From Molanna angustata (Eukaryota; Arthropoda; Insecta; Trichoptera; Molannidae), in assembly GCA_963576475.1 (NCBI GenBank), contig OY754978.1, forward strand, positions 9,918,299 to 9,982,298: 64,000 nucleotides of DNA. Direction: 5' to 3'. The notes under the pieces are model-generated. The model was not told the DNA's origin. It saw only the letters and a list, made by a program, of their open reading frames with translations, and searched no databases. The translations under genes were made by a program, and so were the position numbers. The stretch's first letter is position 1, and each line of letters starts with the position of its first letter. Positions 3,181 through 58,221 of the stretch are shown here, one piece after another.

Positions 3181-3266
3181 CTAATGATGTCCGTGACCTC
3201 CATGTCCTCCATGTCCTCCATGTCCTCCATGTCCCCCATGTCCTCCATGTCCTCCGTGTCCATGCT
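3181..3266 (-). CDS. Gene A exon 5 (terminal): HGG repeats
   Basis: Starts after TTTTCTAG and encodes HGHGGHGGHGGH-type repeats, seven HGG steps, ending HGHH then TAG (3181-3183). The codons alternate CAT and GGA almost perfectly, so this is a 9-nt minisatellite in coding DNA. The opposite strand of the same stretch gives a meaningless VLHVLH frame. Confidence 0.8.
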
Positions 3267-6200
3267 CTAGAAAATAAAATAAATCAATTTTTATCACTAA
3301 GAAAATATTTTTTACTCCTCACCTACCCAAGATGATATAGTGGGGAGTTATGATTTCGCAATTTTTAAGGGTATTTTTTATTTCAGACTATCAACTAGGA
3401 TTATGCTGACATTGTATTCTGAAAGTTTCATCACAATGTATCAGTGTGTGTGTGTGCTATGTGCTATTCGCTGTGTGGTGTGTGCTATGTACGGCGTGTT
3501 TATTTAACTTTATCAATTATAGACTTAAGTACTCATTCGATTCTGCAACTATGATTCTGAAATTTTGCAACTATGTACATATATCTATAATACTCGATTA
3601 GACTCCATTAGTTTTTGAAGGATAATTGAATAGTGCTTCTCAATTTTTTTAACTGTCAAATATTTCAAAGTGACCCTATGATCAGGAAACTTCGAATTGA
3701 AATATAAATTTGAAATTTTTATTTTCATATTGATAAAAAGACACATCACTTGCACAAAATTGCATTGAAGAATTATCAAGTTTTCACAATAAAATATTTT
3801 AATCAAAAATAATTTAACAAAAGTTTCATTTTCAAATTGGTAAGAAAGCACATCACTTTCATAAAATGCCATAGAATAATTAACAAGTTTTCATAGTAAA
3901 ATATTTAAATAAAAAATAATTTAACAAACTCATTTCATGAAAATGCTGAATAATCTTTGGATAATTTGACTTTTTTTTAGGCCACAACCCACTCGTTTTG
4001 ATAAATGTATAAAAATCTGGAATTATTAAATTTCATAGGAAAAACATAAAATGCAATGGCGAATGTTTATATTATCATTTTATTAACTGATCAGTAAATA
4101 AAAAAATGGACATTGTTGTATTTGAAACATCTCTTTTCTGCAAAATTTTTCATAATACGTAACTGTTTGGATTAATTTTTTAGTTTCAAAGTAGTAATTC
4201 ATAATTTTTAACGATAGATATCAGCCATGAAATAACACGACATTGTTATTATTATACAATTTATTAAAATAACAAAACATTATAATTAAACAACAGTTAC
4301 AACATTATAATTAAATCGTGAAATTTGGAATTATTACAAACTACAAAAATTAAATAGCGACACAGAAATCAATGACACTTGAGCTTGAATTTGGGAAAAT
4401 AATTCATTAATGTTTGGATTAATTCCACTGATACAAATATTACAAATTATCGTCAGTCAACCTTGTACGATTTATTAACTTTCATAATTGAAAAGAACTG
4501 TTATTTTTTAAATTGGGTTTTTCAAAATTTCTTGCGGGTCGGATCAAATCTCACAGCTGGTCGGATTGGGCCCGCGGGGCGGTTGTTGCCCAAATTTGAT
4601 TTAAACAATCCACAGTGGTTTCTCTATAATGCCCTTACTCTTGGTAAATGAATATTTTATGTAATATTATTGAAGCTGTTGGTTTTTCCCAAATAAAAAT
4701 AAAAAATATCGCACTATTGTACATCTATTATCCACGTCATACAATAATTCATGTTGCTATTTTAATTCGTTTCTCCAATATGTACACTTTTATTTATTTA
4801 TTAAATAACAAGAAATCATATTCATTGTTGAATATTTTCGAAGACAAAAATTAAATAAAAATATATTGTTATGTCCTTACCATAACCATGTCCATGACCG
4901 CCATGTGGTCCATGATCTGTAAAAAAATAAGAAAATATACAATTAATATAATTAACATTGGACGTAAACAATCGGAACTAAACTTAACGTATGTTTAAAA
5001 AGGTTTCATACACTTTACTATGTACATATATCTTGATATGTTTTTTGTGTTAAAAAGTGTTTTTCCATGTGATGTAGTTTGTTTCCTGTATGTTTCCTAT
5101 GCTTTCAAATCTGTACTTGGGGTCTACGTTAAGCTTATTACGATATTTGTTTTTTTTATTATCAACATTGGAGAAAATTCACACAGATCTACTTTGTTGA
5201 ATTCCGCTTGCAAACCTCCATCGCAAGATAGTTGTATCAGAGATTCCTTTTCACTCACACTTAAATTATTCGAACACTATCTAGATCCGAAACGAATGGT
5301 TCCTTATCCAATAGAACTCCGAATAATCTTCTATAAAATATTCTTCGAATGAATCAACGATCATTTGCCTGTGATTTTTGATGTTATTGATAACATTTTC
5401 ACTCACTGTAAGTTCATTTTCAGTTACAAAATTTTCTAAATTAGGAAAAGATGCCAGGTTCTCATTCGATACGCTCCATTTACTGTGTATGTCTTATGGA
5501 CATGGCTGCTTGCTTACCACCTTAATAATTGTCCCGTACCACCAGTGGTATGCGTACCATAGTTAGGGAATCACTGCTATAAAGTATTCAAATTTTGTAT
5601 GGAAAATATTCAGCATTTTCATGAAATGAGTTTGTTAAATTATTTTTTTATTTAAATATTTTATTATGAAAACTTGATAATTATTCAATGGTATTTTATG
5701 AAAGTGATGTGCCTTTCAATGGGTCACATTGAAATATTTGATAGTTTAAAAAAATGATAAGCACTATTCAGATATCCTTCAAAATCTAATGAGGTCTAAG
5801 TGAGTATCAGATATACAAATTTGCAAAATTTGAAAAGAATCGAATGAGTACTTTAGTCTATAATCGATAAAGTAAAATAAACACTCCGTACATAGCACAC
5901 AGTACATTGCACACAGCACGCAGCACACAACACAAAGTAAACACACAGATACATTGTGATGAAACTCTCAGAATACAATCTCAGCATGATACTAGTTGAT
6001 AATCTGCATTAAAAATAGCCTTAAAACTTGCGAAATCACATCCCGACTATATTCTCTTGGGTTAGTGAGGAGTAAAAATTAAACGTCTATTAGGCATTGC
6101 GTAGTTCTTATGGTTTTATGAAATAATTTGGAAATATCTCAGATCAGATAATTTAATGTGTGGTTTCCTTAATCTACTATAAATATATATTTCCGTGTTG

Positions 6201-9200
6201 TCTCTATTGAGATATTATTTGTCAAGAAATAAATAAAAACACGTGATTGATTCTGGCAGGGGAAATATCAATGTTTGCGTATATATACGCGATCATAATA
6301 TAATAAAATTATTCGTTTTACTAAAATTCAGTCCAGAAAGATGAAATTTAAAAGATAGATAAAAATAAATTGTATATAGAGAAAACACAAGAACATGATC
6401 ATCAAATTAAATCATAGGCCAAATTATAGTTATATATTATAATCCATCAAATTATAGGCCAATTTCACTGCTAAATATTTTAACTAAAGTTTTAGAAAAT
6501 CTAGTGAAAATTCAACTTGTGGAATATTTTGATAAGAACAAAATTTTATCTGAAAACCAAGACGGTTTCAGAAAAAATAGGGGAGTGCAAGACGCAGTTT
6601 CAAATATAACAAATACGGTACTGAAAGCCGTTGATTCAAATAAAAATTGTATAGCAGTTTTTTTAGACTTGAGCAAAGCTTTCGACACAGTATCCCATAA
6701 AATTCTTTTAAAAAAAATAGAAAATATTGGCATAGTCAGCACTGAATACAACTGGTTCAAATCATACATATCTGATCGCTCTCACTCAATTAATGTAGGT
6801 AACGCAACTAGTTTCAATAGAAATATTTCTTACGGAGTTCCTCAAGGAAGTACTTTGGGTCCGGTTTTATTTTTATTATATATTAATTCCTTATGCCAAC
6901 TGAATTTTCAGGGAGAATTTATTTGCTACGCGGATGTCACTGTTCTTATTTTTACTTCCGACTCATGGACAAATGTATACAAGACAGCTACTGACGGTAT
7001 TGATAAAATAAAACAATGGCTAGATGCAAACCTGCTTACATTAAATATTGACAAAACGCAATACATGACATTCAGTATATGTACATTCTAGACGGCAACC
7101 TAGCCAAGACAAAAATTTAATCATACATGACTGTACTCACGAGCAAAGTTGCTTTTGCAAACCACTGACAAGGACTCCATTATATAAATATTTGGGTATC
7201 TACATTGATCACAACTTAAGATGGACAGATCAAATAAAGACTTAAAAACAAAATATTACGCGTTAGCTCAATCGATTATAACACACGGAATGATTGGTTG
7301 GGGTGGCGCTGCTAAAATTAATATGGATCCTCTTATTAAAGCACAAAAAGCTTTAATTAAGGTTATAATAAAAAAACCATTTACATATCCAACAGTTCAA
7401 TTATTTAATGATTTTCCAGTTTTCAACATTCCACAGTTATATATCAAAATTATTTCTATACATTTTCATAAAGATAAAACAATTCACATTACACCGCAAC
7501 ACAATTACGAGACGACACGTAGGAATTTTCTCATGACTCCAAAGACAAACACGACATTCGGACAAAGACATTACTATTATTTAGCTCCAAAAATTTTTAA
7601 TAAGATAAAAAGTGAAATAACGGACATACAGTTGATGAATAATTTGAAATACAAGAAAACAATAGAAACATGGATTAGAAACAAGGGCATTATATACTGC
7701 GGAAACATGATCAAGCTACAATAGTTTATATTTTTATTTTATAATAGGTATATTTTATAACAAGTTTTAGTTAAATACAAGTTTTTTTAAATATATTTTT
7801 CTGTCAGATATAACGCAAAAAAAAAATCTGCCACCTCGGTACAGGCTCAGCCTAGTGAGGTGGTATATACCAAAAAATACTATAAAAAAAAATGTTTCAT
7901 ATAACTTATTTAAATTGTACTTTTTTATAATATTTTTTATTGTTTGTATATTGTTATATTTTGTTTGGTTTCAATAATAAAAAAAAATGATTAGTAAAAT
8001 TGTATTTAAATATGATTTAATAAATATACTCACCGTAACCGTGACCGTGACCATGTGCATATGCTGAAAAAAAAACAAAAAAAAAAAAAATCATCACATC
8101 ACATCAAAAATTTAAACCCCTGTTACCCACATTGTGGGATTTTGCCGGTAATTTATTTTTAGAAAAGTTTTAAAAATTATATTTTCATTATTGAATATTA
8201 TACATATTAACGAAAAATTTTCATTTTTATTCCCTGTCAGGAGTTAAATATGTTTTGAGGCATTTTTTTAACATCTCAATAAGAATGAAATTTTAATGAT
8301 TTTAACCAACTTCGTCTCTATTGAGATGTTGAAAATTTGTCATAAAATATAATATTCACATTTCATTTTATTAGATCGAAAAAATGATTATTTACGTAAT
8401 TATATTTTAGGTAAAAAAAACTGCGCGTCACCTGAGGAGTAAGCAATTAAAAATGCGACGCGTTTTTTTAATGAATTATTCATATTCCATTACTCCTTAA
8501 AAAAGGATTTAGATGCTCAATTTTGAGGTCGTTGCTCGGTTAGGTGGTGTACGAGTGCTCCCTGTTTTCTTACTTCTCTATCCTGTGCCCTTCCTCAAAA
8601 CCATTTCCTTTTGTTAATATAATAATGTTTTTTTGTACCTATATTTATTTGTTACTTCTTGTTTTGTATATTTTGTACACTGGCAGGTTTATTGCAAAAC
8701 GTGTATTTCTTTAAACCAACCAGAATATGTAAGTATAGAATACAATGTGTACTATGACAATAAGATAATGACATGACAAAAGTAAAAAAAATATTATAAA
8801 GATTAAGCAGAAGAAAATTGAAAAAGACAAAAAGAAGTTGAATATATGAACAGCTCATATCTATGATAGGCAAACAGAAGGATGAGGAGAGAAATAGGAG
8901 AGTAATAAGAAATCAGGTTTTATCAGATAGATATTTTTGCTTTAGGACTTTTTTAGCTGACACAATATCAGTACTCAATACTGATTATACTTCAAATGAA
9001 GAGCTAAAAAGTACTATGAATTGGAATAAAGTACGGTCAGTAGATCTGAGTGGAGTGGTTGCCCTTTAAATTATTTTTTTTGTTAAGTACAATTTAATTT
9101 GTCATAAAATACGTTTATTTAACTCTGTTTACACAATAAAATAAAATAAAAAAAAAAAATATTGAAAAAATAACTTACGGTCGGGGTATGGGTTGGCGCT

Positions 9201-10416
9201 TACAACAGCAGCCAGCAAGAAGAAGAAGAAGAGGAACTGAAAGAAGAAAAAATGGGTACTCTAATAGTATTTTTTATTCTAAATTATTACATCAAACACC
9301 ACAAAATAAAATAATGCAAAGCTAATAAAAAGAGTACACAAGAGAAAACTTCAAATCAAAAGATGTCAGTTTATTAATTAAGTTTTACATTTGAAATTTT
9401 TTGTTTATAAATTAAGTTATGTAATAAGGTATGTTTTTAAGTTATTTAATATAATTGATATATTAAGGTATTTACGAATGAAAATATACATTTTTTTTTG
9501 TAAAATATCAATAATAAACGAAACTGCTTCATTTGAAAAAAAAAGTAGTTTAATGTTTTATAAAAAACAAAATATATGTATAAATAACCAAGGGGTAGGT
9601 AATATAAGAGGGAGGGAGTAATTTAGATCAATGTTCATTAGTTCATTAAAAAAAATAATAATAATGGATAGCGAGACTTGAAGATGTTTTAAATATGTAA
9701 ATAGAAATAATAATACAAGTTATTCAGTTACAAAAATAATGGTTTAAAAACCGATATCCCGTTTATATAATCCGTAATAAAGAATTGAAAAATGGAATTC
9801 TAGTTATATAATCAATATATTTTTCTCTATGTATAGATTTGTATGAGGATTATTTAATCAATATTTTATTCTCTATGAATAGATTTGTATGAGGATTATA
9901 TAATCAATATATTATTCACTATGTATAGATTTGTACGAGGATTATTTAATCAATATATTATTCTCTATGTATAAATTTGAATGAGGATTATTTAATCAAT
10001 ATATTATTCTCTATTATAGATTTGTATGAGGATTATTTAATCAATATATTATTTTCTATGTATAGATTTGTATGAGGATTATTTAATCAATATATTATTG
10101 TCTATGTATAGATTTGTATGAGGATTATTTAATCAATATATTATTCTCTATGTATAGATTTGTATGAGGATTATTTTATCAATATATCATTCGCAATGTA
10201 TAGATTTGTATGATGATGATGATGATGATGTGTGTGTGTGTGTGGTTGTGTGTGTGTTTGTGTGTGTGTGTGTGTGCGTGTGTGCGTGTGTTTGTGTGTG
10301 TGTGTGTGCGTGTGTGCGTGTGTGTGCGTGTGTGCGTGTGTGTGTGTGCGTGTGTGTGTGTGTGTGTATGTTAGTTATATAACGAAGATGAAGATATTTA
10401 CCAGGAATTTGGCCAT
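3181..10416 (-). CDS. Gene A: secreted Gly/His-rich peptide, five exons, 74 aa
   Basis: Exons on the minus strand: 10416-10402 (MAKFL), 9236-9179, 8063-8034, 4916-4881, 3266-3181. Coding length is 225 nt, exactly 75 codons with the TAG stop. All junctions are GT/AG; intron 1 is phase 0 and the others phase 1. Residues 1-19 form a signal peptide with a Phe/Leu core ending VVSA; the predicted mature form is 55 aa starting NPYPDPYAHGHGHGY, then DHGPHGGHGHGY, then HGG repeats ending HGHH. By my count 18 of 55 mature residues are His and 24 Gly. No cysteine. A TATA box and AATAAA frame the gene. Family membership is unknown to me; the composition recalls Gly/His-rich insect antimicrobial peptides and histidine-rich coacervating proteins, which is inference only. 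Introns hold a LINE, MITE-like elements and a minisatellite. Two paralogs with the same splice architecture strongly support it. Confidence 0.8.
3325..3990 (+). mobile_element. MITE-like element in gene A intron 4
   Basis: Begins TTTTACTCCTCAC with an ATAGTGGGGAGT motif and ends before GGCCACAACCCACTCGTTTT. Related sequence lies inverted at 5585-6072, and distantly at 53617-54290. At the matching intron position in gene B (near 27660) the host sequence runs uninterrupted, which supports insertion. No transposase is present. Confidence 0.5.
3995..4880. other. Gene A intron 4, remainder
   Basis: A+T-rich intron sequence shared with duplicons 2 and 3 and with 18340-19310. At 4636-4652 it holds an apparently empty site (TTACTCTTGGTAAATGAAT) where the other three duplicons carry a SINE. 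No exon seen. Confidence 0.6.
4881..4916 (-). CDS. Gene A exon 4 (36-nt micro-exon): HGPHGGHGHGY
   Basis: Flanked by TTTTTTACAG and GTAAGGAC. Read in phase 1 it gives D (split codon), HGPHGGHGHGY and the first base of E. The homologous exon of gene C is 55518-55483 (HGPQGGHGHGF). Gene B lacks it. Confidence 0.8.
5585..6072 (-). mobile_element. MITE-like element in gene A intron 3
   Basis: Inverted relative of 3325-3990, ending TTAGTGAGGAGTAAAAATT. The same element part is present at the equivalent intron positions near 30660-30890 (gene B) and 56600-56990 (gene C), so it predates at least part of the duplication history. Confidence 0.5.
6405..7985 (+). mobile_element. LINE inserted in gene A intron 3
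   Basis: The host intron reads ACAAGAACATGAT before the insert and AAAATGATTAGTAAAATTG after it; genes B (33820) and C (57150) show the joined form, which defines the insertion and a short ATGAT target duplication. The element is 5'-truncated inside the reverse transcriptase and ends in an A-rich tail. Fragments with the same C-terminal region occur at 29.7-30.1 and 36.97-37.18 kb. Confidence 0.75.
6447..7724 (+). pseudogene. LINE reverse transcriptase, disrupted
   Basis: Begins inside the RT with NYRPISLL, then LSKAFDTVSHKILL (first catalytic Asp) and GVPQGSTLGPVLFLLYIN. The catalytic centre reads YADVTV where YADDT is expected, which would abolish polymerase activity. The frame stops at 7089-7091. 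A second block (7221-7724) covers the C-terminal domain with TTFGQRHYYYLAPKIFNKI, a motif repeated in the 37 kb fragment. The segment between is shifted. RT of this kind copies the element RNA at the target site. The clade is Jockey/CR1/I-like; I cannot fix it further. Confidence 0.85.
8034..8063 (-). CDS. Gene A exon 3 (30-nt micro-exon): YAHGHGHGY
   Basis: Flanked by TTTTTTTCAG and GTGAGTATA. The phase-1 reading gives P (split with the previous exon), YAHGHGHGY and the first base of D. Homologs: 33916-33878 in gene B, 58221-58183 in gene C. Confidence 0.8.
8500..8615. other. Single-copy intron segment related to the 61-bp satellite of gene C
   Basis: AAGGATTTAGATG, then GGTGTACGAGTGCTCCCTGT, TTTCTTACTTCTCTATCCTG and TGCCCTTCC is a diverged single copy of the unit that forms the array at 59290-64000. 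A second single copy is in gene B intron 2 at about 40425-40480. All lie in intron 2 between exons 2 and 3. Confidence 0.75.
9179..9236 (-). CDS. Gene A exon 2: signal peptide core
   Basis: Follows CTTCTTTCAG, ends before GTAAGTTAT. Encodes FLFFFFLLAAVVSANPYPD plus one base. The run of four TTC codons is a coding microsatellite; gene B differs in it by one codon. Confidence 0.85.
9795..10212. repeat. 46-bp minisatellite in gene A intron 1
   Basis: About nine copies of a unit containing ATGTATAGATTTGTATGAGG and ATTATTTAATCAATATATTA; GAGGATTA recurs at 9845, 9891, 9937, 9983, 10028, 10074, 10120 and 10166. Gene B intron 1 lacks this array and has a different 39-bp one. Confidence 0.9.
10210..10370. 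repeat. (GAT)n followed by (TG)n microsatellite
   Basis: Seven GAT units and then about 140 bp of TG/CG dinucleotides, ending about 30 bp from the gene A exon 1 donor. The Cys/Val-rich open frames through it are artefacts. Confidence 0.95.
10402..10416 (-). CDS. Gene A exon 1: MAKFL
   Basis: ATG at 10416-10414 in ATCATGG context, five codons, then donor GTAAATATC. The same exon and flanks occur in gene B at 41902-41888. A 5' leader of about 35 nt is predicted. Confidence 0.8.
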
Positions 10417-10478
10417 GATGAAGATGTCTTTACCGCTTATGACAGTTAATGACTATAAAAAATAAAGATGCCATGCAG

Positions 10479-10486
10479 TTTATATA
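10479..10486 (-). promoter_or_regulatory. TATA box of gene A
   Basis: TATATAAA on the minus strand, with a TAGTCATT initiator-like sequence about 36 nt downstream (A at 10450) and the ATG about 34 nt beyond it. The box and surrounding ~200 bp are conserved at 41965-41972 upstream of gene B, consistent with both being expressed from a shared promoter type. Confidence 0.7.
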
Positions 10487-17270: not shown

Positions 17271-18214
17271 ACAATAAATAGGCAATATCTGTCAGTGAAC
17301 CAGCACACAAGGCTTTTTAATGCAATAAGTATGCAAATGCCTTAAAAGAACGAGCAGGTCAACGCCAAGCTCACATCTGCGAAGTATAGGTACTTATTTC
17401 TTCTTAAAATGTTGGAAATTCCTGAATACATTTTCATAAATATATTCTTAATGTTTACACATTCTTTAAATAAAATTACAATCATATTTTTTTACTGATT
17501 ATAGTAATGAGGGAACGGAAGGATGTGGAAGAAACATTTGTATAGATTGAGATGACGAATCATCAGCAGATCGAAGAGGTAGACCGTGATATGAAAGAAA
17601 TATGATATTATTCTGTAAACAATATAGTAATGGCAGTAGATGAATGTTACTATGATCTCGTATCTTTGGCTAAAGGAATTATATTTGTACATCAATCATA
17701 TTGATGAATTACATTAATAAATATAACTTTTTAATTGGAACATACAATATATTTACATCCTCTTAATCTATGTAAATAAATGCATGTACGAAATCAGTCA
17801 ATGTAGGATTCGAACCCGACTTAAGATTTTTTTAAATTCTTATCTACGATAGGTGCTATATCGAATTTTGATTTCACTCGCACCGAAAACAAGTTGGCAC
17901 ATTCTGAACAATTATGATATTTTTCGTCTCATAGACACATAATGAAAAAACAATTTAAAACTGCGTCTCCAACGAGAATCGACGCCGGGACTTTTCGCTC
18001 AGGAGACACATACATATTTTACCAATTGCGCCACAAAGGCCAACATGTATGCAGCGCACAAGCCTTCTAATTTTAATAGGTAATAATTATTCTAATAATC
18101 TTGAGGTCTTTTTTGAGTTATTGCATACTAGATAATTCCTTTTTCGTGTTTTGACTTGGGGGGGGGGGGGGGGGGGTAAAATAATTTGGAATGAAACATT
18201 CAAATTTTTATTAT

Positions 18215-18280
18215 AAAGTGTTAAATTTTGCTTTAGGCCCTTTATGCCTTTTAGGCCCTTTGCTTTATGCTGTCCGTGCT
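18215..18280 (-). pseudogene. Degenerate terminal exon of a Gly/His-rich gene
   Basis: The splice acceptor TTTTCTAG is kept and the first codons read HGQH, but the HGG repeats are gone. They are replaced by a scrambled duplication of the 3' UTR motif GGGCCTAAAG, giving a Lys-rich reading (KAKGLKGIKGLK). The TAG stop is lost. AATAAA remains at 18207-18212. No upstream exons are present, so this is a dead copy. Confidence 0.7.
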
Positions 18281-19377: not shown

Positions 19378-19841
19378 CAGGGGTCTCCAAACTACGGCCT
19401 GAGGGCCACATCCGGCCCGCGGACAGATTTTGTCCGGCCCGCGGAGAGCTAGCATACTTGAAAACTCCTTTTAGAAAACATATTTTTTATAGCAAATTAA
19501 ATTTAGTTTACTGAAGTATTCTAATTTTATGTTGAATAATTATTAATATGACATCTACATTGATATGGTCATGGGCTAACTACTCATAACATTGTTGTAG
19601 GCTTATTGTTATTGTTTTTGTGATAAGTTGGATAAAGAAACACATAATTGTAATGAGTAAAGACATGTATAATATGCAGAAAATTTAACTTCAGTATATA
19701 ATAACTAACAAATTATTGAATATTTCATCAGTGGACTATTTCACTTTTTACCACCGGCAACAATGATAATATGGTTTTGGCCCTCGGAACTTACTGGAGT
19801 AATCAGTATGGCCCTAGGGCTGGAAAGTTTGGAGACCCCTG
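19378..19841. mobile_element. hAT-type MITE, 464 bp, with perfect TIRs and 8-bp TSD
   Basis: The ends CAGGGGTCTCCAAACT and AGTTTGGAGACCCCTG are perfect 16-bp inverted repeats, and GTATAGAG is duplicated on both sides (19370-19377 and 19842-19849). An 8-bp target duplication and a CAGGG-type terminus fit the hAT superfamily. No coding capacity. It lies inside the mariner transposase gene. Confidence 0.92.
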
Positions 19842-19849
19842 GTATAGAG

Positions 19850-20712
19850 GATGGTCAAGAATTTCTACGTTTTCCTGCTTCAAATACTGAATAGTTTGAC
19901 GAGCGCTGTGTGAGCTTGTGTTATCATGGTGTAGGATGATGCGTCGCTTTGGGTTAGATTTCCGAAGTTCGACGATGACTTGTGGTAAACAAACTGTCGT
20001 GTACCACTCAGCATTAACCGTTCTATGATCTTCAAGTGCAATTGTCGCAATATGACCGGTTTCGCAACGAACGTGGCCACCATCTTCTTTGAAGTGCTTC
20101 GAGAACGAACAACTTTAGTCGGCTTTGCCTCATCTTGGAAGACCCAGACAGTAGATTGTTGTTTTAAATCAGGATCGTAGGCATAGATCCAAGATTCGTC
20201 ACCACTGATGATGTCGTAGACGTGATTTGACTCTCCTCGGTTGAACCTTTGAAGAGTTTTCTTACACCATCTGACGCGGGCCTCCTTATTATCGTCGGAA
20301 AGCAAATGCGGGATCCAACGGCAAACTAGTATTCTCACACCAAGTGCCATATGCAATATCTTCTGAATCGTTGTCCCTGAGATGTCTAATAACGCCTCTA
20401 TCTCTCGATATGTCAAAGATGATCTTCGAGAATAAGTTGTCTCACAGCAATGATGTTTTCTTCAGTGAAGGCAGATTTTGGACGTCCTTCACGAGATTTG
20501 TCACTAAGACTGGTATGTCCACGCTGAAATTCTAAGTACCAGCGTTCGACAGTCCGCAGAGATGGAGCTTCATCTTGGAACAAAGATGTTATCTCTTCAA
20601 AACACTGAAGCCGTGTTAGGCCTCTTTTAAATTTGTAGAAAATTATTGCATGGACATTTTCCTTAGTAAGATTCATTTTCGTACGTGACCTGACAGATTC
20701 AAAACGACGCAA
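19850..20712 (-). pseudogene. Mariner transposase, frameshifted
   Basis: The N-terminal part (20712-20413) has the helix-turn-helix region, including QDEAPSLRTVERWYLEFQRG and REGRPKS. The next part (20416-19880) carries the first catalytic Asp in SGDESWIYAYDPDLKQQS. The second catalytic region (HHDNTSSHSARQT) is only readable in another frame near 19910-19950, and the C-terminal end is displaced by the MITE. At least two frameshifts are present. Mariner transposases cut and paste the element at TA sites; this copy is inactive. Confidence 0.85.
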
Positions 20713-20869
20713 TTTTAAATTCTAAATTCAACAAATTTGAATATCAAACAAGCACTTTTTAAATACACTGACTACTTTTTGTCTCACTTGTTTGCTTAGT
20801 AGTATGTAATTATTAATTTATTAAGGGACACAAGAAGACTGCGTGCGACCACTGTATATATGTATTATT

Positions 20870-27519: not shown

Positions 27520-27620
27520 TTAGTCCCTAATGATAAAATATCCGTGACCTCCATAATGTCCGTGACCTCCATGATGTCCGTGACCTCCATGATGACCTCC
27601 ATGTCCTCCGTGTCCGTGTT
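27520..27620 (-). CDS. Gene B exon 6 (terminal)
   Basis: After TATTTTCTAG. Encodes HGHGGHGGHHGGHGHHGG and HYGGHGYFIIRD then TAA (27520-27522). Compared with gene A, an indel moves the reading frame past the old TAG and adds five residues. Confidence 0.8.
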
Positions 27621-39600: not shown

Positions 39601-41902
39601 GGTAAATAAGCAACCAGACTTGCCCCCCTGGTTACGAACTCAGAAGTCTTAAGTCTAGACAGAACAACCAGGAAACTCTTGTCCACAGTAAAGGTCCGCA
39701 AGATCACATATCTGGGTCACATAATGAGGGGGGAGAAGTATCACTTGCTCCAACTAATACTGAAGGGCAAGATAGACGGTCGCCGAGGGACTGGAAGGAG
39801 ACAGATGTCCTGGCTGCGCAACATTAGGGAATGGACCGGCTTCAGGACCGTGGAACAGATATTCCGGGCAGCACAGGACAGAGAGGGATTTGCCAGAGTG
39901 ATAGCCGACGTTGGGGGTTCCTGACATGGCACCGGAAGAAGAAGAATATTACGATATGCATAAGACATAAATAAATTGTATATAAATGTATGGGTAGTGT
40001 AAAATATAATATTATGTGAGTAGAAACAAAATATGTATGTATGTTTGGAGATTAATTAATATCAAATAATTGAGTTTCTTAGATATTGTGTATAGGCCAC
40101 TGCGTTAGAAATTGTATGAAGCGATGTCGTCACTAAATTCAATTTTTATAAAAATTGTTAAAAAAATTTGAGATGTACTACTACAATATTAATTTTTTTA
40201 TAGAAAATTAAATTATCTAGTTGGGGTGTTTCGGATTTATTCGATATTTTTAAAAGATTTGGAATTATAGGCAGTTAAACTCATAAATTTATCATAAAAA
40301 AAATATTTTTCTTAATAAAAAATGTTTGAGAACCTTGGATATTTTTTGAAAAAGCTTATTTGAGATTTTGTATTTGTCTATATTCATACCAATTTTCAAC
40401 GTTCTAGCTTTTATGGTTTCTGAGATGTACGAGTACTCCCCGTTTTCTTACTACTCTATCCTGCGCCTTTCCTCAAAACCATTTCCTTTTGTTATTATAA
40501 TAATGTTTTTATTTTTACCTATATTTATTTGCTACTTCTTGTTTTGTATATTTTGTACACTGGCAGGTTTATTGCAAAACGTGAATTTCTTTCAACCAAC
40601 CAGAATATGTAAGTATAGAATATAATGTGTACTATGAAAATAAGATAATGACATGACAAGAATTAAAAAAAATGATTAAGATAAAGCAGAAGAAAATTGA
40701 AAGAGACGAAAAGAAGTTGAATATATGAACAGCTCATAGCAATGATAGGAAAACAGAAGGATGAGGAGAGGAATAGGAAGGTAATAAGAAATCAGGTATT
40801 ATAAGATAGATATTTTTGCTTTAGGTTTTTTTATCTGACACAATATCTGACTATTCCATAGATGAAGAGCTAATAATATAAGTAACTACTATGAATTGGA
40901 ATAAAGTACGGTCAGAAGGTCTGAGTGGAGTGGTCGCCCATTAAATTATTTTTTTTATTAAGTACAATTAAAATAAGTTTATTTAACTCTGTTTACACAA
41001 TAAATTAAAATAAAAATATTTGAAAAAATAACTTACGGTCGGGGTATGGGCTGGTGGCGATCACAACAGCAGCCAGCAAGAAGACGAAGAAGAAGAACTG
41101 AAAGAAGAAAAAAATAGGTATTCTTATAATATTTTTTATTCTAAATTATACATCAAACACCACAAAATAAAATAATGCATAGCTAATAAAAAGAGTACAC
41201 AAGAGAAAACTTCAAATCAAAAGATGTCAGTTTATTAAGTTTTATATTTGAAATTTTTTAGTGATATAATAAGGTATGTTGTCAAGTTAATTAATATAAT
41301 TGATATAATAAGGTATGTTGTTAAGTTAATTCATATAATTGATATTATAAGGTATGTTGTTAAGTTAATTAATATAATTGATATAATAAGGTATGTTGTT
41401 AAGTTAATTAATATAATTGATATAATAAGGTATGTTGTTAAGTTAATTAATATAATTGACATAATAAGGTATTTAAGCGAATGAAAATATACATTTTTTT
41501 TAAATCAATAATAAACGTAATTGCTACATTAAAAAAAATAAAGCAGACAATATGGCTAATAAAAAGAGTACACAATTACGAACTCATAATATTACGAGAA
41601 AACTTGTAAGATGTCAGTAATTTGTTAAGTTTTACATTTGAATTTTTTTGTTTTTAAATAAAGTGATATAATAAGGTATGTTGTTAAGTTTATTAATATA
41701 ATTGATATATTAAGGTATTTAGGGGAATGAAAATTTACATTTAATTTGAAAAATCAATAATAAACATAACTGTTTAAAAAATATAGCAGTTACATTTATT
41801 CTTTTATAAAAAAAACAATAAAAAACATGATATAGAAAAAAATATATAAATAACCAAGGGGTAGGTAATATAAGAGATAATGTTTACCAGGAATTTGGCC
41901 AT
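27520..41902 (-). CDS. Gene B: secreted Gly/His/Pro/Phe-rich peptide, six exons, 135 aa
   Basis: Exons: 41902-41888, 41096-41036, 33916-33878, 32239-32192, 30322-30179, 27620-27520. The lengths sum to 408 nt, exactly 136 codons with TAA. The signal peptide is MAKFL plus FFFFVFLLAAVVIA, and PYPD is kept as TSPYPD. Modules: YAHGHGHSHGGF; QGPGFGQGGSGGFEM; a PGFGQG array with about seven units; then HGHGGHGGHHGGHGHHGG and a C-terminal YFIIRD tail not found in gene A. Exon 5 has lost the conserved acceptor AG (AA at 30330-30329), but an AG six bases inside keeps the frame. If exon 5 were skipped, phase 1 would still be preserved. TATA and AATAAA are conserved. It is probably expressed like gene A; function unknown. 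Confidence 0.75.
28050..28110 (-). mobile_element. Truncated SINE
   Basis: Only the distal end of the 18925-19205 SINE type is present (GAATCCTTCCTTCCCCTG through GGGGTACGCTTTAAG). The rest is replaced by other sequence, the same event that removed a micro-exon slot from gene B. Confidence 0.7.
28195..29260. mobile_element. Interspersed element with CCAACTGTC-type inverted ends
   Basis: Left end ATCCAACTGTCGAT, right end AGACAGTTGGAT. The interior includes (TG)n, TATAACTTTTGATCCGCTCA and a GACGACATCGCTTCATACAA block. It matches 57195-58160 in inverted orientation, and 40040-40425 is a partial inverted copy. No transposase seen, so probably a non-autonomous DNA element. Confidence 0.5.
29300..29555. 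other. Gene B intron 5, segment shared with gene C
   Basis: TTAAAGTGTTTAAACAATAA and following sequence match 56197-56400 in gene C. No exon here. Confidence 0.5.
29556..30144 (-). mobile_element. Insertion of LINE 3' sequence with 14-bp target duplication
   Basis: CCTAATTATTACAT flanks both sides (29542-29555 and 30145-30158), and gene C at about 56402 shows the unsplit site. Inside, the minus strand (about 30110-29740) encodes a LINE ORF2 C-terminal part: LGMNLQIYSGSLRKSTKSIL and NKPYRYPSDDLFKEFDVL, similar to the block at 7300-7440 (KKPFTYPTVQLFNDFPVF). Confidence 0.7.
30179..30322 (-). CDS. Gene B exon 5: PGFGQG repeat exon with altered acceptor
   Basis: An 18-nt unit (GGTCCAGGTTTCGGACAA) repeated about seven times, encoding GPGFGQ, with one E for G variant and a final PDFGGNGGFEM. 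Compared with the sister exon at 32239, the acceptor CAG is CAA, and the next AG is within ACCAAG, giving an in-frame exon six bases shorter. The donor GTATGATA is intact. Use in the mature transcript is therefore likely but not certain. Confidence 0.65.
30660..30900 (-). mobile_element. MITE-like fragment in gene B intron
   Basis: Matches 5630-5850 and 56600-56710 (GAAAGTGACGTGCC, CTATTCAGATATCCTTCAAA). Confidence 0.5.
30962..32110 (-). mobile_element. RTE-type LINE 3' part in gene B intron 4
   Basis: The minus strand ends with the (GTAT)n tail near 30965 and the GGTAGGCAGAGAGAACCGAA motif common to the RTE copies at 47 and 58 kb. The coding part covers RT from MYADDKV (near 31805) to the end. 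It is inserted between the duplicated exons of gene B. Confidence 0.8.
31156..32060 (-). pseudogene. RTE-type reverse transcriptase remnant
   Basis: The best-kept block (31551-31156) contains NGALRPIINDRNISKDAKVA, TYASENWTWQK, RLLRRICTRTMYDRVRNEDI and LRWFGHMVRMNEERL, the C-terminal domain of RTE-type LINEs. The upstream RT core is legible only in pieces because of frameshifts. The homologous copy on the plus strand at 46.2-47.1 kb reads NGALKPVMNVNGILKDG at the same place. Confidence 0.8.
32192..32239 (-). CDS. Gene B exon 4: QGPGFGQGGSGGFEM
   Basis: Canonical ACTTTCAG acceptor and GTATGATA donor; 48 nt, phase 1 to phase 1. This is the sister of exon 5: the ~230-340 bp around both exons are duplicated, including CTATGGCGCGCGATGCCATA in the flanking intron (30459 and 32367). 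Confidence 0.8.
32430..33645 (+). mobile_element. RLE-type LINE, 3' portion, in gene B intron 3
   Basis: A plus-strand element whose 3' end matches the inverted fragment at 850-1235. The host intron is split after CACTAGAAATACAATGATA and resumes around 33650. Confidence 0.75.
32640..33445 (+). pseudogene. LINE C-terminal zinc knuckle and restriction-like endonuclease
   Basis: Reads KIWSNKWLSIGDLDADLEGF, an in-frame TAA at 32750-32752, then CRKCLAFPETIEHIISGC (a CCHC knuckle), and after 32930 a PD-(D/E)XK-like core: NRPDLIIHDK, ITYICDVGHVP, KIRKYTALSNEIKRLW, ending with an MQKTVIMNTCRIVKDFL helix. This order, CCHC then endonuclease at the C-terminus, is known from LINEs with restriction-like endonucleases (R2/R4/NeSL group and relatives). 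From 32753 to the stop at 33443 it is uninterrupted (about 230 codons), better kept than most elements here. The RT domain is not in this copy. Confidence 0.75.
33878..33916 (-). CDS. Gene B exon 3 (39-nt micro-exon): YAHGHGHSHGGF
   Basis: Acceptor TTTTTTCTTCAG, donor GTGAGTAAA. Nine nt longer than the gene A homolog, adding a SHGGF-like end. Confidence 0.8.
33967..34850 (+). pseudogene. LINE reverse transcriptase fragment, split by another insertion
   Basis: The plus strand reads LRLFNAIYDTGNIPQDWLRS, TFVTLPKKQHPKKCGDYRLI, FGFRNAFGTREAL and KEVFACF, is interrupted at about 34277, and resumes at 34681 with VIDYEKAFDRVRHCDLIEML to about 34850. This is the N-terminal half of a non-LTR RT with its first catalytic Asp (IDYEKAFD). 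A related, more decayed sequence is at 38200-38760. Confidence 0.8.
34277..34680 (-). mobile_element. Short LINE 3' fragment nested in a LINE
   Basis: The minus strand encodes the C-terminal end of a LINE ORF2 (LLPKVWNPMPASLKQCGSIE, EFKKKAKGYILHKNP, stop near 34491) and then a 3' UTR with an A-rich tail at the left border. It splits the RT reading frame of the surrounding element. Confidence 0.7.
34855..35222. repeat. Two tandem ~180-bp copies
   Basis: CATGACAAATTATACTTT starts both copies (about 34864 and 35044), each with TTAAACGTTTC, TTATGGTT and a later AAATTTACAG or similar. The end of the second copy leads into the THAP-like exon. Confidence 0.6.
35283..35590 (+). pseudogene. THAP-domain fragment
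   Basis: After an acceptor-like TTTACAG, ATG 35283 opens YCCVPGRELNYETYLKKDG and FNFNVPLHD, followed by TAA. In the next frame it continues EEWIPTSKSAICSQF, matching the WxPTxxSxICSxHF end of THAP zinc fingers. The second zinc Cys is Arg here, and CSQF replaces CSxHF, so zinc binding would be lost. A shifted tail runs to an FCAKHFKINN stop near 35587. THAP domains are found in P-element-type transposases and in host DNA-binding proteins; in this setting a transposon relic is more likely. Confidence 0.6.
35590..36290. other. A+T-rich sequence, no gene seen
   Basis: No open frame, tandem repeat or RNA gene recognised between the THAP fragment and the SINE. Confidence 0.4.
36300..36420 (-). mobile_element. 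tRNA-derived SINE, Thr(AGT)-like head
   Basis: The minus strand from 36418 gives GGTCGATGGCAGAGCGGCTA, an anticodon-like loop TTAGTAA and a B box GAGTTCGAATCC, closing with CTCGACC opposite GGTCGA. The T stem has mispairs and the sequence continues into a body shared with fragments at 37730-37840 and 37880-38000, so I call a SINE and not a functional tRNA. Confidence 0.6.
36670..37190 (-). pseudogene. LINE 3' end with C-terminal ORF2 fragment
   Basis: The minus strand encodes TIPIMKTSFGQRQFNFIAPR, IYNKLDNDIK and a stop near 36973, then a 3' UTR with GTTTTGCCTAGTGGGGCG and an (AAAT)n tail at 36690-36715. The same C-terminal motif (TFGQRxxxxxAPxIxNK) is in the 7.2-7.7 kb element. Confidence 0.75.
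37190..38150. other. A+T-rich sequence with SINE pieces
   Basis: Three imperfect ~55-bp copies of AACCCAATTGTTAATATA with AATAATTTTAAGAT lie at 37475-37580. SINE-like fragments with CGAGTTCGAATCCTGTC occur at 37741 and a degenerate one at about 37890. No gene. Confidence 0.5.
38200..38760 (+). pseudogene. Highly decayed LINE reverse transcriptase
   Basis: Fragments in shifting frames: FVDEKAFD (38250), GYGIPDKIVRII with YLHKGSKRRVRVSD (38336-38415), and VDGDITVNVESFKYLAAQLT with RDGSIGNPNWVKQACLQ (38540-38650). These are ordered parts of a non-LTR RT and its C-terminal region, with many stops. Confidence 0.65.
38760..39620. other. Unassigned sequence
   Basis: No gene. Two related pieces near 39480 and 39553 share CGGGACTTGCCAT, a possible short diverged repeat. 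Confidence 0.4.
39630..39925 (+). pseudogene. LINE ORF2 C-terminal fragment
   Basis: Encodes VRKITYLGHIMRGEKYHLLQ, LILKGKIDGRRGTGRRQMSW, LRNIREWTG and ends ADVGGS and stop, the common C-terminal domain of endonuclease/RT LINEs. Truncated at its start. The tail is (GAA)n-like at 39935. Confidence 0.8.
40040..40425 (-). mobile_element. Partial copy of the CCAACTGTC-ended element
   Basis: Matches 28640-29030 inverted and 57400-57770 directly (GAAGCGATGTCGTCACTAAA, TTGGGGTGTTTCGG). Lies in gene B intron 2. Confidence 0.6.
41036..41096 (-). CDS. Gene B exon 2: signal peptide core
   Basis: Acceptor TCTTTCAG, donor GTAAGTTAT; encodes FFFFVFLLAAVVIATSPYPD plus one base. One codon longer than gene A. 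Confidence 0.85.
41256..41480. repeat. 39-bp minisatellite in gene B intron 1
   Basis: Five to six copies of AATTGATATAATAAGGTATG followed by TTGTTAAGTTAATTAATAT. Gene A has one related copy at about 9418-9470. Because 39 is divisible by three it gives a repetitive open frame that is not a gene. Confidence 0.9.
41888..41902 (-). CDS. Gene B exon 1: MAKFL
   Basis: Same five codons and leader as gene A; donor GTAAACATT. Confidence 0.8.
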
Positions 41903-45673: not shown

Positions 45674-45726
45674 CTAATGATGCTGTCCATGTCCTCCATG
45701 TCCTCCATGTCCTCCGTGTCCGTGTT
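45674..45726 (-). CDS. Gene C terminal exon
   Basis: After TTTTCTAG; encodes HGHGGHGGHGGHGQHH and TAG (45674-45676). Shorter repeat than gene A. Confidence 0.75.
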
Positions 45727-54700: not shown

Positions 54701-57700
54701 AGTGGCTTCTTTATAATGCCCTAACTCTTGTTAAATGAATCCTTCCTTCCCCTGATCGCTTTTGTCCCGTTTCTATCGGGGTACACTTTGACCATGATCC
54801 TGGAATTGGCGAGTCTGGTTATTACATTGAAGCGACTGCCATCTGACCTTCGTAACCCTTAGAAAGGGGAACCAGACAAATTGGATCATGGCTACACATA
54901 GCTAGTGATATAAATCCGCACATAGATTTTTTGAAAATCCAGAGGTGCGTGCCCCGCCCGGATTCGAACCGTTGACCTCACGCATGGACTATCACCGCCC
55001 GGATTCGAACCGTTGACCTCACGCATGGACTATCACCGCCCGGATTCGAACCGTTGACCTCACTCATGGACTATCACCGCCCGGATTCGAACCGTTGGCC
55101 TCACGCATGGACTATCTCCGCCCGGACTCGAACCGTTGGCCTCACGCATGGACTATCACCACCCGGATTCGAACCGTTGACCTCACGCATGGACTATCAC
55201 CGCCCGGATTCGAACCGTTGACTTCACGCATGGAGTATCTCTTGGTAAATGAATATTTTATGTAATATTATTGAAGCTGTTGGTTTTTCCCAAATAAGTA
55301 CAAAAAAATATCACACTATTGTACATCTATTATCCACGTCATACAATAATTCATGTTGCTATTTTAATTCGCTTCTCCAATATGTTCACTTTTATTTATT
55401 TATTAAATAACAAGAAATTATATTCATTGTTGAATATTGTCGAAACCAAAAATTAAATAAAAATATATTGTCATGTCCTTACCAAAACCATGTCCGTGAC
55501 CGCCTTGTGGTCCATGATCTGTAAAAAAATAAGAACGAAAACAAATTATTATTTTTAGATTTAATAAATCATCAATGTATGCGATTTTTTTACTCTCTTA
55601 CGCCGCTGAGAAGCAATAATTAAAATGAAGACACCTGAACAGTGAAAAAAATGGGTTGGACAGCGAAATTGTAGTATGATGCGTAAGTTAATCTCGATTT
55701 CTCTTATTTTTTTGGTTAGGTTCAGTTATTGTTTAAAATAGCGAATTACTAAATAGCTACTCCCGTGAGCGAGTTGCATTATAAATTGAATTGAAATTGG
55801 ATACAAGAAAAAAATATATCAGCACCTTTGTCATTTGAGGTTAGGTTAGTTAGAATAAGTATATTATGTATAGCATTTGATCACATTTTACAAATAATTA
55901 AAATTTCTCAACATATTATTTACGTATTGGTATGACACCTACCTATACATACATTTTTAAAAGTAGGTACTTGTTATTTTTTGTGTTGAAAGTTTTCGCG
56001 TTATATGTCAACTTTGACAGCTCTTCCGATCTTGGCAAAAATGAGCTGTGGTGTATTCTAAGGTCAAGTGAAATTGTCTACACATTGAAGGACCGCATTC
56101 CTCGTTCATCTAGCAAGTACCGCCTTTAATACTCCATAACATCTTGGTGTATCACACTACGAAAATATTATTTTATCTATTTCAATTATCTTGTAAAAGT
56201 TAAAGTGTTTAAACAGTAAATGAATTATGTAACGACTTTTAATAAGGAATTAATATCATATATATAAATATATAATCTTAAAGGACAATCTAGTTGTATA
56301 TATTTGGAGCTACTAATTTCTAGAATAATCTTTTCTTATTTGACAACGGACAATCTTTATTCAATAATAAGTAATTAAATTGCAACATTCTGATTTATTA
56401 TCCCTAATTATTACATGTTATAAAAAATATGATACCGTTTCCAAATCCACCATGTCCTGCGTGTCCTCCATGTCCTCCATGTCCTCCATGTCCGATAGCT
56501 GGACCATGCTCTGAAAAGAATAAGAAAAAAAAAACCATTTAACAATGTTTTGAAAACTTTATAATATAAAGCTGTTGATAGTTTAATAAAATCACTACTA
56601 ATTTCCTTAGTTTGGGGACACTTTGAAATATTTGATAGTTAAAAAAATTGATTAGCACTATTCAGATATCCTTCAAAATCTAATGGGGTTTAAGTGAGTA
56701 TCAGATATACTAATTTGCAAAAATTGAAAAGAACCGAATGAGTACTTTATCGAAAATCCATAAAGTAAAATAAACACGCCGTACATAGCACACAGTACAT
56801 AGCACACAGTACATAGCACGCAGCACGCAGCACACAGCACACAACACAGATACATTGTGATAAAACTTTCAGAATACAATCTCAGCATGATACTAGTTGA
56901 TAATCTGCAATAAAAAAAATAGCCTTAAAAATTGCGAAATCATACCCGACTATATCCTCTTGGGTTAGTGTGGAGTAAGAATTGAACATCTATAATAGGC
57001 TTATGGTTTCCGTGCAGTCTCTATTGAGTTATTATTTGTAAAAAAATAAAAATAAAACACGTAATTGATTCCCGGCAGGGGAATAATCAATGTTTGCCTA
57101 TATTATAATTATTCGTTTTCCTAAAGTTCAGTCCAATGGAGACGACATAAGAACATGATAATAAAATTGTATTAACTAGTTGCATGTAACACATGAGATC
57201 CAACTGTCGATAGCGATAGTATGTACATATAGTTGAAGAATAAGAATCAAACTATAAACCCATAAATCCAAATTATTGAAAATTTTAACACATCATGGTG
57301 GTATGTATGTCAAGATAGGACAGTATGGAGGTCAGTCCTGTTTTCATACCCGGAATATGAAAACAGCATGATGGTTCTGTGTGTATGTTTGGAGATTAAG
57401 TACCTATCAAACTATTAAGTATTCTTACATATTGTGTATAGGCGACTGCCATACAAATTGTATGAAGCAATGTCGTCACTAAATTCAATTTTTATAAAAA
57501 TTGTTAAAAAAAGTTTGAGATGTGCTAATACAATTTTATATTTTTTATAGAAAATTAAATTATCAAGTTTGGGTGTTTCGGCTTTTTTCGATATTTTTAA
57601 AAAAATTGGAAATATAGGCAGTTAAACTCATAAATTTATCATAAAAAAATATATTTCTTAATAAAAAATATTTGAGAAACCCTGGAATTTTTTTGAAAAA

Positions 57701-58221
57701 AATAATTTGAGATTTTGTATTTGTCTATATTTGTACCAATTTTCAGCGTTCTATCTTTTATGGTTTCTATCTTTTTTGATATATGGAAAAATAAAGTAAA
57801 AATTCAAAAGTTGATAACCCCTGACTGAAACAAAAATTCAAAATTCTGAGTAAAAAAGTTTTGTAGGCCTATAACTGTTCATATATTCTGAAATTTAAGG
57901 CTCTGTCAATTGAGCGGATCAAAAGTTATAATGACACACACACACACACAGACACATGAAATGTTCTACTCCGAATTCTGAGTAAATCCGTTATGGAACA
58001 TATATGCTGCGAAGCCTCTAAGTTGGTGTTTTTTGACTTCAAAGTTGGAAAAGCCGTGAAAAAAGTAGACTTCTGCATACAATTCTCGCGTATCCTGGCT
58101 TGAAACATTGTCGATATGTTAAGAACACAAAGTTCTCCTGAACAAATCAACAGTTGGAATATGATTTAATAAATATACTCACCATTCTTGAAACCATCGT
58201 GACCGTGACCATGTGTATATG
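45674..58221 (-). CDS. Gene C: Gly/His-rich peptide gene, 3' four exons
   Basis: Visible exons: 58221-58183, 56510-56436, 55518-55483, 45726-45674 (203 nt, in frame across all junctions, GT/AG borders, phase 1). They encode YTHGHGHDGFKN, HGPAIGHGGHGGHGGHAGHG with GFGN, HGPQGGHGHGF, and HGHGGHGGHGGHGQHH then TAG. Exons for MAKFL and the signal peptide should follow upstream, beyond the 61-bp array and the window edge. Its second visible exon occupies the slot that encodes PGFGQG in gene B: the flanking introns match but the repeat content is different. The last intron is about 9.8 kb because of nested LINE, RTE and Bel-Pao insertions, so correct splicing is less certain than in gene A. Confidence 0.7.
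45757..45838. repeat. (AAAAG/AAAGATA)n purine-rich simple repeat
   Basis: Imperfect GAAAAAG and GATAAAAA units just before the RTE LINE. The opposite-strand Phe/Ser-rich frame is an artefact. Confidence 0.85.
45839..47131 (+). mobile_element. RTE-type LINE, 5'-truncated
   Basis: A plus-strand element ending with the GGACATGGCGTGATAGTATG and (TATG)n terminus shared with the copies at 30.96 kb (inverted), 53.6 kb and 58.65 kb. The endonuclease domain is missing. The Bel-Pao element sits directly after it at 47137. Confidence 0.85.
45841..47050 (+). pseudogene. RTE-type reverse transcriptase, disrupted
   Basis: Motifs in order: AELIKYDGE, GRTPSDWRNAIVVPLYKGKG, NYRAISLLSSVGKMYARILD, GAFVGGRGCIDQIF, FIDLEKAYDKVVREKLW, GVRQGCVLSPWLFNLYID, MYADDKVLLAES and GLRMNASKSKVMVFEKSE. 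The catalytic YADD is intact. An in-frame TGA (46213-46215) and a frameshift near 46600 break the frame. The order and spacing fit RTE-clade LINEs. Confidence 0.88.
47137..47398 (-). repeat. Bel-Pao 3' LTR
   Basis: 262 bp, TG/CA ends on the plus strand. Preceded on the coding strand by a purine-rich GAGTGGGCGG tract that could be the polypurine primer. Confidence 0.95.
47734..48988 (-). pseudogene. Bel-Pao integrase region, disrupted
   Basis: The first block (48988-48419) has the zinc-binding HHCC pattern (HISYLHVGPRSLQHLIQRKY, CLVCKRF) and the first catalytic Asp region (NVSIDLGGPFIF). A local duplication of ~25 bp around TTTGGTTGGCACACG near 48420-48450 breaks the frame. The second block (48480-47734) continues with YSDCGTNLVG, PPKGPHFGGLHEI (the third acidic residue), TPAHFIISE and a C-terminal GDLVLVKEE domain. 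Integrase would insert the element DNA; this copy is not functional. Confidence 0.88.
49028..50140 (-). pseudogene. Bel-Pao RT C-terminus, connection and RNase H
   Basis: HIKLLGIKWDFVNDVFCYQV, then SSIYDPVGWIIPFTFLLKSF, then an RNase H-like region with FSDASNDGYSAVCYL, PRLELCGALLLSKLI and YTDSSIVLSWL. It ends at an in-frame TGA (49028-49030), after which the integrase frame continues without shift. Confidence 0.88.
50233..51342 (-). pseudogene. Bel-Pao protease end and reverse transcriptase
   Basis: Contains DILGADMYGKLF, YIPHHCVLKPDSLSTKLRFV, FSADITKMYRQISIRQEDRR, LGSSPYNAIQTINQLA and the catalytic YVDDIAV. It is in the same frame as the gag block, separated only by one TAA at 51361-51363. 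Just after the catalytic motif a 1-nt shift near 50270 and a later TAA near 50165 break the frame. Confidence 0.9.
51361..52782 (-). pseudogene. Bel-Pao gag and protease N-terminus
   Basis: 474 codons from ATG 52782. The gag core is in the first ~300 residues, with a Pao-type region (FHDMFVSLIH, YLRTSIKGFA). A cysteine/histidine cluster follows with CYMCKGSHTIHNC, LCFCCFGKHLIKDC and CQTCDKKH knuckles. The protease active site is KCLVDSGSQVTLMSG. The frame ends in TAA inside the protease region. Confidence 0.9.
53091..53352 (-). repeat. Bel-Pao 5' LTR
   Basis: 262 bp, one mismatch to the other LTR. The minus strand would start transcription here. Confidence 0.95.
53440..53616 (+). mobile_element. 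RTE LINE 3' terminus fragment
   Basis: AAGACGATGTATGAATGTTG, GTATGTCAAGATAGAAGTAA, CCGTAAGGGACATATGGCGT and a GTATGTATGTATG tail: the common RTE 3' end, separate from the copy at 47.1 kb. Confidence 0.8.
53617..54290 (+). mobile_element. 0.67-kb element with ACTCCCCACACTATGG ends
   Basis: Left ACTCCCCACACTATGGAATA and right ACTATGGTGTGGAGAGTTTA are imperfect inverted repeats. It contains TTTTTGTGTCCTCTCTACAG and GATCGACTTCATATTCACAT, found inverted at 17000-17270. A reversed RTE 3' fragment is embedded at about 53910-54030. Confidence 0.6.
54740..55245 (-). mobile_element. tRNA-derived SINE with seven tandem B-box units
   Basis: Same SINE as at 18925, flanked by TAACTCTTGTTAAATGAAT and ATCTCTTGGTAAATGAAT. 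Its head is amplified as seven 41-bp units beginning at 54956, 54997, 55038, 55079, 55120, 55161 and 55202. Each carries a Pol III B box (GGTTCGAATCC on the minus strand, one copy GGTTCGAGTCC). Confidence 0.85.
55483..55518 (-). CDS. Gene C micro-exon: HGPQGGHGHGF
   Basis: Acceptor TTTTTTTACAG, donor GTAAGGAC; 36 nt. Homolog of gene A exon 4 with His to Gln and Tyr to Phe changes. Confidence 0.8.
55530..56400. other. Gene C intron, no other feature
   Basis: 55530-56190 is A+T-rich without recognised elements. 56197-56400 matches gene B intron 5. Confidence 0.5.
56436..56510 (-). CDS. Gene C exon: HGPAIGHGG repeat module
   Basis: Acceptor TTCTTTTCAG, donor GTATCATA; 75 nt, phase 1. Encodes HGPAIG, then HGG steps, then HAGHGGFGN. 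It sits in the slot of gene B exons 4 and 5. Confidence 0.8.
56600..56990 (-). mobile_element. MITE-like fragment in gene C intron
   Basis: Matches 5740-6072 of gene A (CTTGGGTTAGTGTGGAGTAA end; ACAGTACATAGCAC repeats). Confidence 0.5.
57195..58160 (-). mobile_element. Element with CCAACTGTC-type inverted ends, inverted copy
   Basis: Left GATCCAACTGTCGAT, right CAACAGTTGGA. Inverted relative of 28195-29260. It is inserted just beside the intron segment that leads to the gene C micro-exon at 58183. Confidence 0.5.
58183..58221 (-). CDS. Gene C micro-exon: YTHGHGHDGFKN
   Basis: Acceptor TTTTTTACAG, donor GTGAGTATA; 39 nt, phase 1. Homolog of gene A exon 3 and gene B exon 3. Confidence 0.8.

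Follow-up and report, generated by a model that had tools for sequence, protein, structure and literature searches.

The window, a stretch of 64,000 nucleotides (C14:9918299-9982298, in an assembly of 995 Mb and 131 contigs), contains three minus-strand copies of a small gene, here called A, B and C, and one degenerate terminal exon. Coordinates below are those of the window; adding 9918298 gives the position on C14, and negative values lie to the left of the window. When 50 kb on each side are included (164 kb, of which 5 kb, 72001-77000, are N), gene C is completed to the right and two intact genes, E and F, are found to the left, which gives five intact predicted genes along the contig, F, E, A, B and C, all on the minus strand. 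A preliminary description of this DNA had reported three minus-strand paralogs and one dead terminal exon; they lie where it placed them, in an array that is larger and extends beyond the window. No further member was found by a scan for Gly/His repeats and BLAST searches with the exons within the 164 kb. The copies follow a common plan. A TATA promoter is followed by a first coding exon of 15 nt (MAKFL), then by an exon that resembles a signal peptide, by between one and three internal cassette exons and, at the end, by a terminal exon of Gly/His repeats. The smallest coding pieces of the array have 15 to 39 bases, and the predicted precursors 64 to 135 residues.

Gene A has five coding exons. 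The first (MAKFL, 10402..10416, on the minus strand like all the exons described here), which is identical in all five copies, is preceded by TATATAAA at 10486-10479 and by TCATT at 10452-10448. The second (9179..9236) encodes the signal peptide and ends in intron phase 1; it is followed by a 30-nt exon 3 (8034..8063), a 36-nt cassette exon of the DHGP type (4881..4916) and the terminal Gly/His exon, which contains the stop (3181..3266, with AATAAA at 3153-3148). These exons add up to 225 nt, or 75 codons with the stop, and the precursor has 74 residues. The predicted mature peptide of 55 residues consists of 43.6% Gly, 32.7% His and 7.3% Tyr, with no Cys, Lys or Arg; Gly and His together make up 42/55 residues (76.4%), close to the three-quarters announced earlier. 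Its computed charge is -2.8 at pH 7.4 and +10.7 at pH 5.5. A 313-bp tandem array (10989-16545, 17.8 copies, 96%) lies slightly upstream of the promoter of gene A.

Gene B has six exons between 41902 and 27520: exon 1 (MAKFL, 41888..41902, with TATATAAA at 41972-41965), the signal peptide exon 2 (41037..41097), a 39-nt exon 3 (33878..33916), two cassette exons of the X type, exon 4 (48 nt, 32192..32239) and exon 5 (144 nt, a QGPGFG repeat, 30179..30322), and the terminal Gly/His exon with the stop (27520..27620, AATAAA at 27499-27494). The total is 408 nt, or 136 codons with the stop, for a precursor of 135 residues; the codon counts put forward earlier for genes A and B are therefore exact, stop included. 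Exon 5 looks like a copy of exon 4 when the sequences are compared, and the introns upstream of these two exons are 90% identical across about 94 aligned nt. At exon 5, AA is found where the sister exon 4 has its acceptor AG, and a shifted acceptor, AAG, slightly farther downstream preserves the frame. The frame is also kept if exon 5 is omitted, and this exon may be skipped. A 5-nt indel in the terminal exon alters the last residues of the protein. From its sequence, gene B may thus be decaying: the original acceptor of exon 5 is gone and the C-terminus is altered. Its predicted mature product contains 13.0% His.

The first two exons of gene C are outside the window (66922-66908 and 66487-66412), and four are inside: exon 3 (39 nt, 58183..58221), an X-type cassette exon 4 (75 nt, 56436..56510), a DHGP-type cassette exon 5 (36 nt, 55483..55518) and the terminal Gly/His exon with the stop (45674..45726, AATAAA at 45646-45641). 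The four exons of the window represent 68 codons with the stop, with 28.4% His in the corresponding part of the protein, and the complete precursor has 97 residues. The last intron, of 9,756 nt, holds a BEL/Pao element, pieces of which (DUF1759, Peptidase_A17, DUF5641) are on the same strand as the gene, at 47734-52791. The relatives of the BEL/Pao ORF are at most 43% identical and, among the 120 matches listed, the named ones are almost all from arthropods, and one is from a sponge. In the same intron, seven tandem 41-bp units (54954-55239) look like the tRNA B-box piece of a SINE. Intron 2 contains a 61-bp satellite, from 59292 to 64000 and continuing to about 65734, with 106 exact 17-mer marks between 65734 and 59329. 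Since 43-45 nt of the satellite unit match intron 2 of gene A (8585-8541, 82%) and of gene B (40470-40428, 86%), the satellite appears to have expanded locally out of the intron itself.

To the left of the window, gene E (-263 to -3298) consists of four exons encoding 64 residues, and gene F (-4188 to -16870) of six exons encoding 100 residues. Further left, 20 kb away, a diverged three-exon relative, gene G (-20161 to -23556, same strand as the array, for a predicted secreted peptide of 68 residues), has a MKYF start, a signal-like exon and a Gly/His/Asp exon. The architecture of its start is similar to that of the array genes, and its sequence makes it a candidate for the ancestor or the outgroup of the array. 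The dead copy, D, is represented by a degenerate terminal exon and the common 3' flank (17945..18280, minus strand, starting at 18280), in which the acceptor and the 3' flank are kept and the GGH repeat is lost. Searches with exons E1, E2 and E3 and with both types of cassettes found no other exon of this copy. The terminal exon at 45.7 kb was considered as the dead one and rejected, because a search with the 3'UTR led to the degenerate one at 18.28 kb instead. At 19803-20721 there are fragments of a transposase of the mariner or Tc type; this element looks recently active because it has at least 40 near-identical copies in the genome (95-100% over about 200 nt, for the best 40 of 219 candidates). 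Copies of another repeat, in the sequence of the window, read catacatac, then atcacgcc, then ggggtaggcagag; together with the size of the genome, this repeat may point to Lepidoptera.

The structure of the five copies is regular. All introns are GT-AG (22/22) and each of the five frames has a single stop, at its end. The earlier statement that every GT/AG junction is in frame holds for these introns, but not without a qualification, as exon 5 of gene B needs its shifted acceptor. The length of E2 is 1 mod 3 and that of the terminal exon 2 mod 3 in 5/5 copies, and the internal exons that follow E2 are all 0 mod 3, with the same phase at both ends (12/12). TATATAAA is located at -70 and AATAAA 21-34 nt past the stop in all five copies, and TCATT 36 nt before the ATG in A and B. 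This agrees with the TATA box and AATAAA proposed earlier, found as TATATAAA before A and B and as AATAAA at 3153, 27499 and 45646. The five copies share descent, and we give no combined probability for these regularities. In the window, the Gly/His scan detects 7 blocks, every one of them on the minus strand; it detects none in any of 20 dinucleotide shuffles. The pyrimidine tracts of 9 of the 13 acceptors are in the top 3.2% of the 3,213 minus-strand AG of the window, and those of the other four (A4, A5, B4, B6) range from about 1.2-1.3%, for A4, to 11.4%. Ten tracts are thus strong; for A5, B4 and B6, which have ordinary tracts, 5.5%, 5.5% and 11.4% of minus-strand AG do as well.

Exon E3 and the cassettes of the X type (B4, B5, C4, F4) and of the DHGP type (A4, C5, F5) begin at the second position of a codon; their lengths, always divisible by three, run from 30 to 144 nt. 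As their phase is the same and their length divisible by three, the gain, loss or omission of a cassette leaves the frame intact. The X-type cassette is absent from E and A, single in F and C, and doubled in B; the DHGP cassette is present in F, A and C and absent from E and B. The copies therefore differ in the frame-neutral micro-exon cassettes that they have gained or lost, and also in the length of the repeats. Judging from the sequence, alternative inclusion of the cassettes at splicing is possible.

Conservation across the five copies has the shape of a gene, the exons and the core promoter being the most conserved blocks. The five-way identity is 94.8% in the core promoter, 100% in E1, 91.1% in E2, 89.1% in E3 and 88.9% in the early 3'UTR; it is lower in the adjoining introns (81.0-85.1%), the 3' flank (67.4%) and the distal upstream region (63.8%). 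When only A and B are compared, the excess of the core promoter over the introns is significant for just one chosen block (-135 to +15, P 0.010) and not for the BLAST segment as a whole (P 0.15), and we rely on the five-way comparison instead. There are more nonsynonymous than synonymous differences in 10/10 pairs of copies (27 codons of E1-E3), at about the neutral expectation; purifying selection at the level of residues is thus unsupported, and the Gly/His composition is nevertheless kept. The lengths of 7/8 exonic and 7/29 intronic indels are divisible by three, but this count carries little weight because the pairs overlap and repeat units contribute: slippage in 9-nt repeat units alone yields length changes in threes.

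The excess of nonsynonymous differences, together with introns full of transposons, the dead copy D and a gene B with a broken original acceptor and an altered C-terminus, could also be understood if the whole array were non-functional, a series of tandem remnants of one gene whose exons survive only through the youth of the copies. We consider this improbable: promoters (5/5), introns (22/22) and frames (5/5) are intact, and exons and core promoters stand out as the most conserved blocks between copies whose introns differ by 15-19% and whose flanks differ by a third. With their exon-shaped conservation and common core promoter, the five intact copies are still best read, as in the preliminary description, as a family of tandem genes built of micro-exons and encoding secreted peptides rich in Gly and His. 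For this gene-family part, which concerns the predicted genes and not their role, we regard the reading as very probable.

No family was found for these proteins in the databases. None of the products of A, B, C, E, F and G reaches the cut-off of a Pfam family, the matches of gene B being also below it. NCBIfam, whose models serve bacteria and archaea, gives no match that would refute novelty. A sequence match in the PDB (E 0.0059, to a bacterial cytochrome oxidase subunit) was taken as a match of composition and set aside. With residues 1-40 of gene A, a search of nr found no candidate with three common 5-residue words, eligible proteins having about 41-130 residues. With the whole of gene A, a single match was obtained when the best 7,994 word-sharing candidates were scored. 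Neither search with gene A found an insect relative, by a method that is weak for low-complexity peptides; such relatives may therefore exist unannotated. Among the papers listed in searches of the literature, none looked like an account of a Gly/His peptide family with an architecture of cassette micro-exons. The earlier suggestion that the family may be undescribed is not refuted by Pfam, NCBIfam or the protein searches with gene A. Secreted low-complexity Gly/His peptides are of a known kind, and the part that may be new is apparently the cassette micro-exon architecture.

The single nr match of gene A, a Gly-rich protein from a plant, has a signal peptide, and this is also what the precursors of shepherins look like. 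It speaks for the idea that the products are Gly/His-rich antimicrobial peptides acting in the manner of shepherins, holotricin 3 and tenecin 3, their own His turning cationic in acid, and that the array is a fast-evolving immune cluster. The genes are indeed small, arranged in tandem and rich in nonsynonymous differences. Two Pfam matches that stay under threshold, of gene E with a putative bacteriocin family (21.2 bits against a cut-off of 40) and of gene G with a family of fungus-induced proteins (12.5 against 24), go in the same direction, but they probably reflect composition. Against this idea, mature A is predicted to be net negative at neutral pH, and the 450 nt that precede the ATG, in A as in B, match neither of two patterns of the kB type, although the absence of a motif is weak evidence. 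We also know of no antimicrobial peptide gene with a comparable multi-cassette micro-exon structure. With 43.6% Gly in 55 residues, mature A belongs to the short, secreted, Gly-rich peptides, a class defined by composition, which is not proof of descent. Shepherins, holotricin 3, tenecin 3 and armadillidins are likewise short and Gly-rich with a repeat of the GGH type, and the GGH-type repeats of the terminal exons resemble those described for shepherins (PMC5031766); however, the known peptides come from plants, beetles and an isopod. The values described for holotricin 3 and shepherins are 64-68% Gly and a pI near 7.3-7.4 (PMC5031766). All in all, we regard an antimicrobial function as a serious candidate that is nonetheless unlikely.

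The exon structure itself suggests another comparison, with the bicycle genes of aphids: the array might encode secreted micro-exon effectors that work in the same way. Bicycle proteins carry paired CYC motifs, whereas cysteines are absent from all five copies (0 in 5/5). The genes of the array are, like theirs, secreted (as predicted), tandem and diverging, and many micro-exons starting at codon position 2 and encoding secreted proteins are a trait of bicycle genes as described in PMC9168663. Those genes, however, have about 17 exons on average, compared with 4-6 in the array, whose predicted products are low-complexity Gly/His peptides. Scored by the published classifier of gene structure with the coefficients as printed (PMC9168663), A reaches 0.16, B 0.0014 and B without exon 5 0.036, all below the cut-off of 0.72. 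A bicycle-like function therefore appears very improbable.

The promoters contain a direct repeat, CGGTCA, one base, then CGGTCA or AGGTCA, which we take to resemble the DR1 nuclear-receptor site that HNF4, for example, uses in gut and fat body. This repeat of the CGGTCA type, along with 13-33% His in A, B and the in-window part of C, would suit secreted carriers or buffers of metals (Zn, Cu, Ni) in the gut or the haemolymph. Poly Gly/His alone is unspecific, however, and the DR1 reading is tentative, so we see a metal-carrying function as rather improbable, if slightly less so than a non-functional array.

A structural role of the Gly/His peptides, as a material of cuticle, scales or a secretion, is the reading that we favor, tentatively and at somewhat less than even chances when this role is considered alone. 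We lean towards it because the peptides are predicted to be negative at neutral pH, Tyr/Phe occur beside GHG, and no kB-type match was found upstream of A or B; it comes ahead of the antimicrobial function, its main rival, by a small margin. According to the mechanism that we have in mind, the peptides would be secreted and disordered, their abundant His side chains would change charge around pH 6, and either catechol-quinone chemistry or a metal would immobilise them by way of His and Tyr. His-rich cuticular proteins, with 6-45% His, are described as abundant in the scales of Bombyx, and films were made from one of them through cross-linking with laccase2 and N-acyldopamines (PMC8062583). The His contents of mature A (32.7%), mature B (13.0%) and the in-window part of C (28.4%) are within the range given for these CPR proteins. 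On the other hand, Pfam detects neither a Rebers-Riddiford domain nor any other domain of cuticle proteins in A, B, C, E, F or G, which sets them apart from the CPR proteins proper. Three ORFs of the right flank, secreted or other, also have no cuticle domain by Pfam. Two predicted secreted proteins encoded on the minus strand (L013:3596-4144 and L013:7136-7663) share a C-terminal motif, EGRN, one residue, then RI, and have no Pfam match.

The His- and Gly-rich cuticular proteins of Lepidoptera (BmorCPR152 and the CPG proteins) resemble the products of the array in being secreted, Gly- or His-rich and encoded by several genes (PMC8062583, PMC2542385), but the array genes combine the lack of a Rebers-Riddiford domain with micro-exon cassettes. 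Compared with the CPG proteins as they are described, the array has HGG repeats and a hydrophobic N-terminus, without the GGY-type repeats of BmorCPG1 (PMC2542385). Another secreted Gly-rich peptide of Lepidoptera, H-WG11-NH2, occurs in the viscous matrix of the defence droplets of Zygaena; unlike the peptides of the array, it consists of Trp and eleven Gly, with no His, and in the account given of it no transcript was found (PMC4778013). The whole reading, in which five intact predicted genes and one dead exon form a family whose secreted Gly/His peptides would likely make a cross-linkable matrix of cuticle, scales or a secretion, seems to us evenly balanced between right and wrong.

A more speculative proposal, which we consider unlikely, slightly less probable than the antimicrobial function, is that the array belongs to an undescribed insect family in which interchangeable, frame-neutral micro-exon modules of peptides, through tandem duplication, gain or loss of cassettes and cassette skipping during splicing, would yield a ladder of secreted Gly/His peptides that condense and cross-link upon a switch of pH or metal, the family being derived from a three-exon, G-like ancestor next door.

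Genes of such a shape are easily missed, because they have no long exon, their repeats resemble low complexity and their first coding exon has 15 nt. If the genes are expressed, symmetric micro-exons would let a secreted low-complexity peptide vary in length and composition without a frameshift, and the Gly/His peptides of the array would form a natural series in which condensation, cross-linking or antimicrobial action could be tested. Their expression would also suggest that structural or defence peptides encoded by small exons are under-counted in insect genomes.
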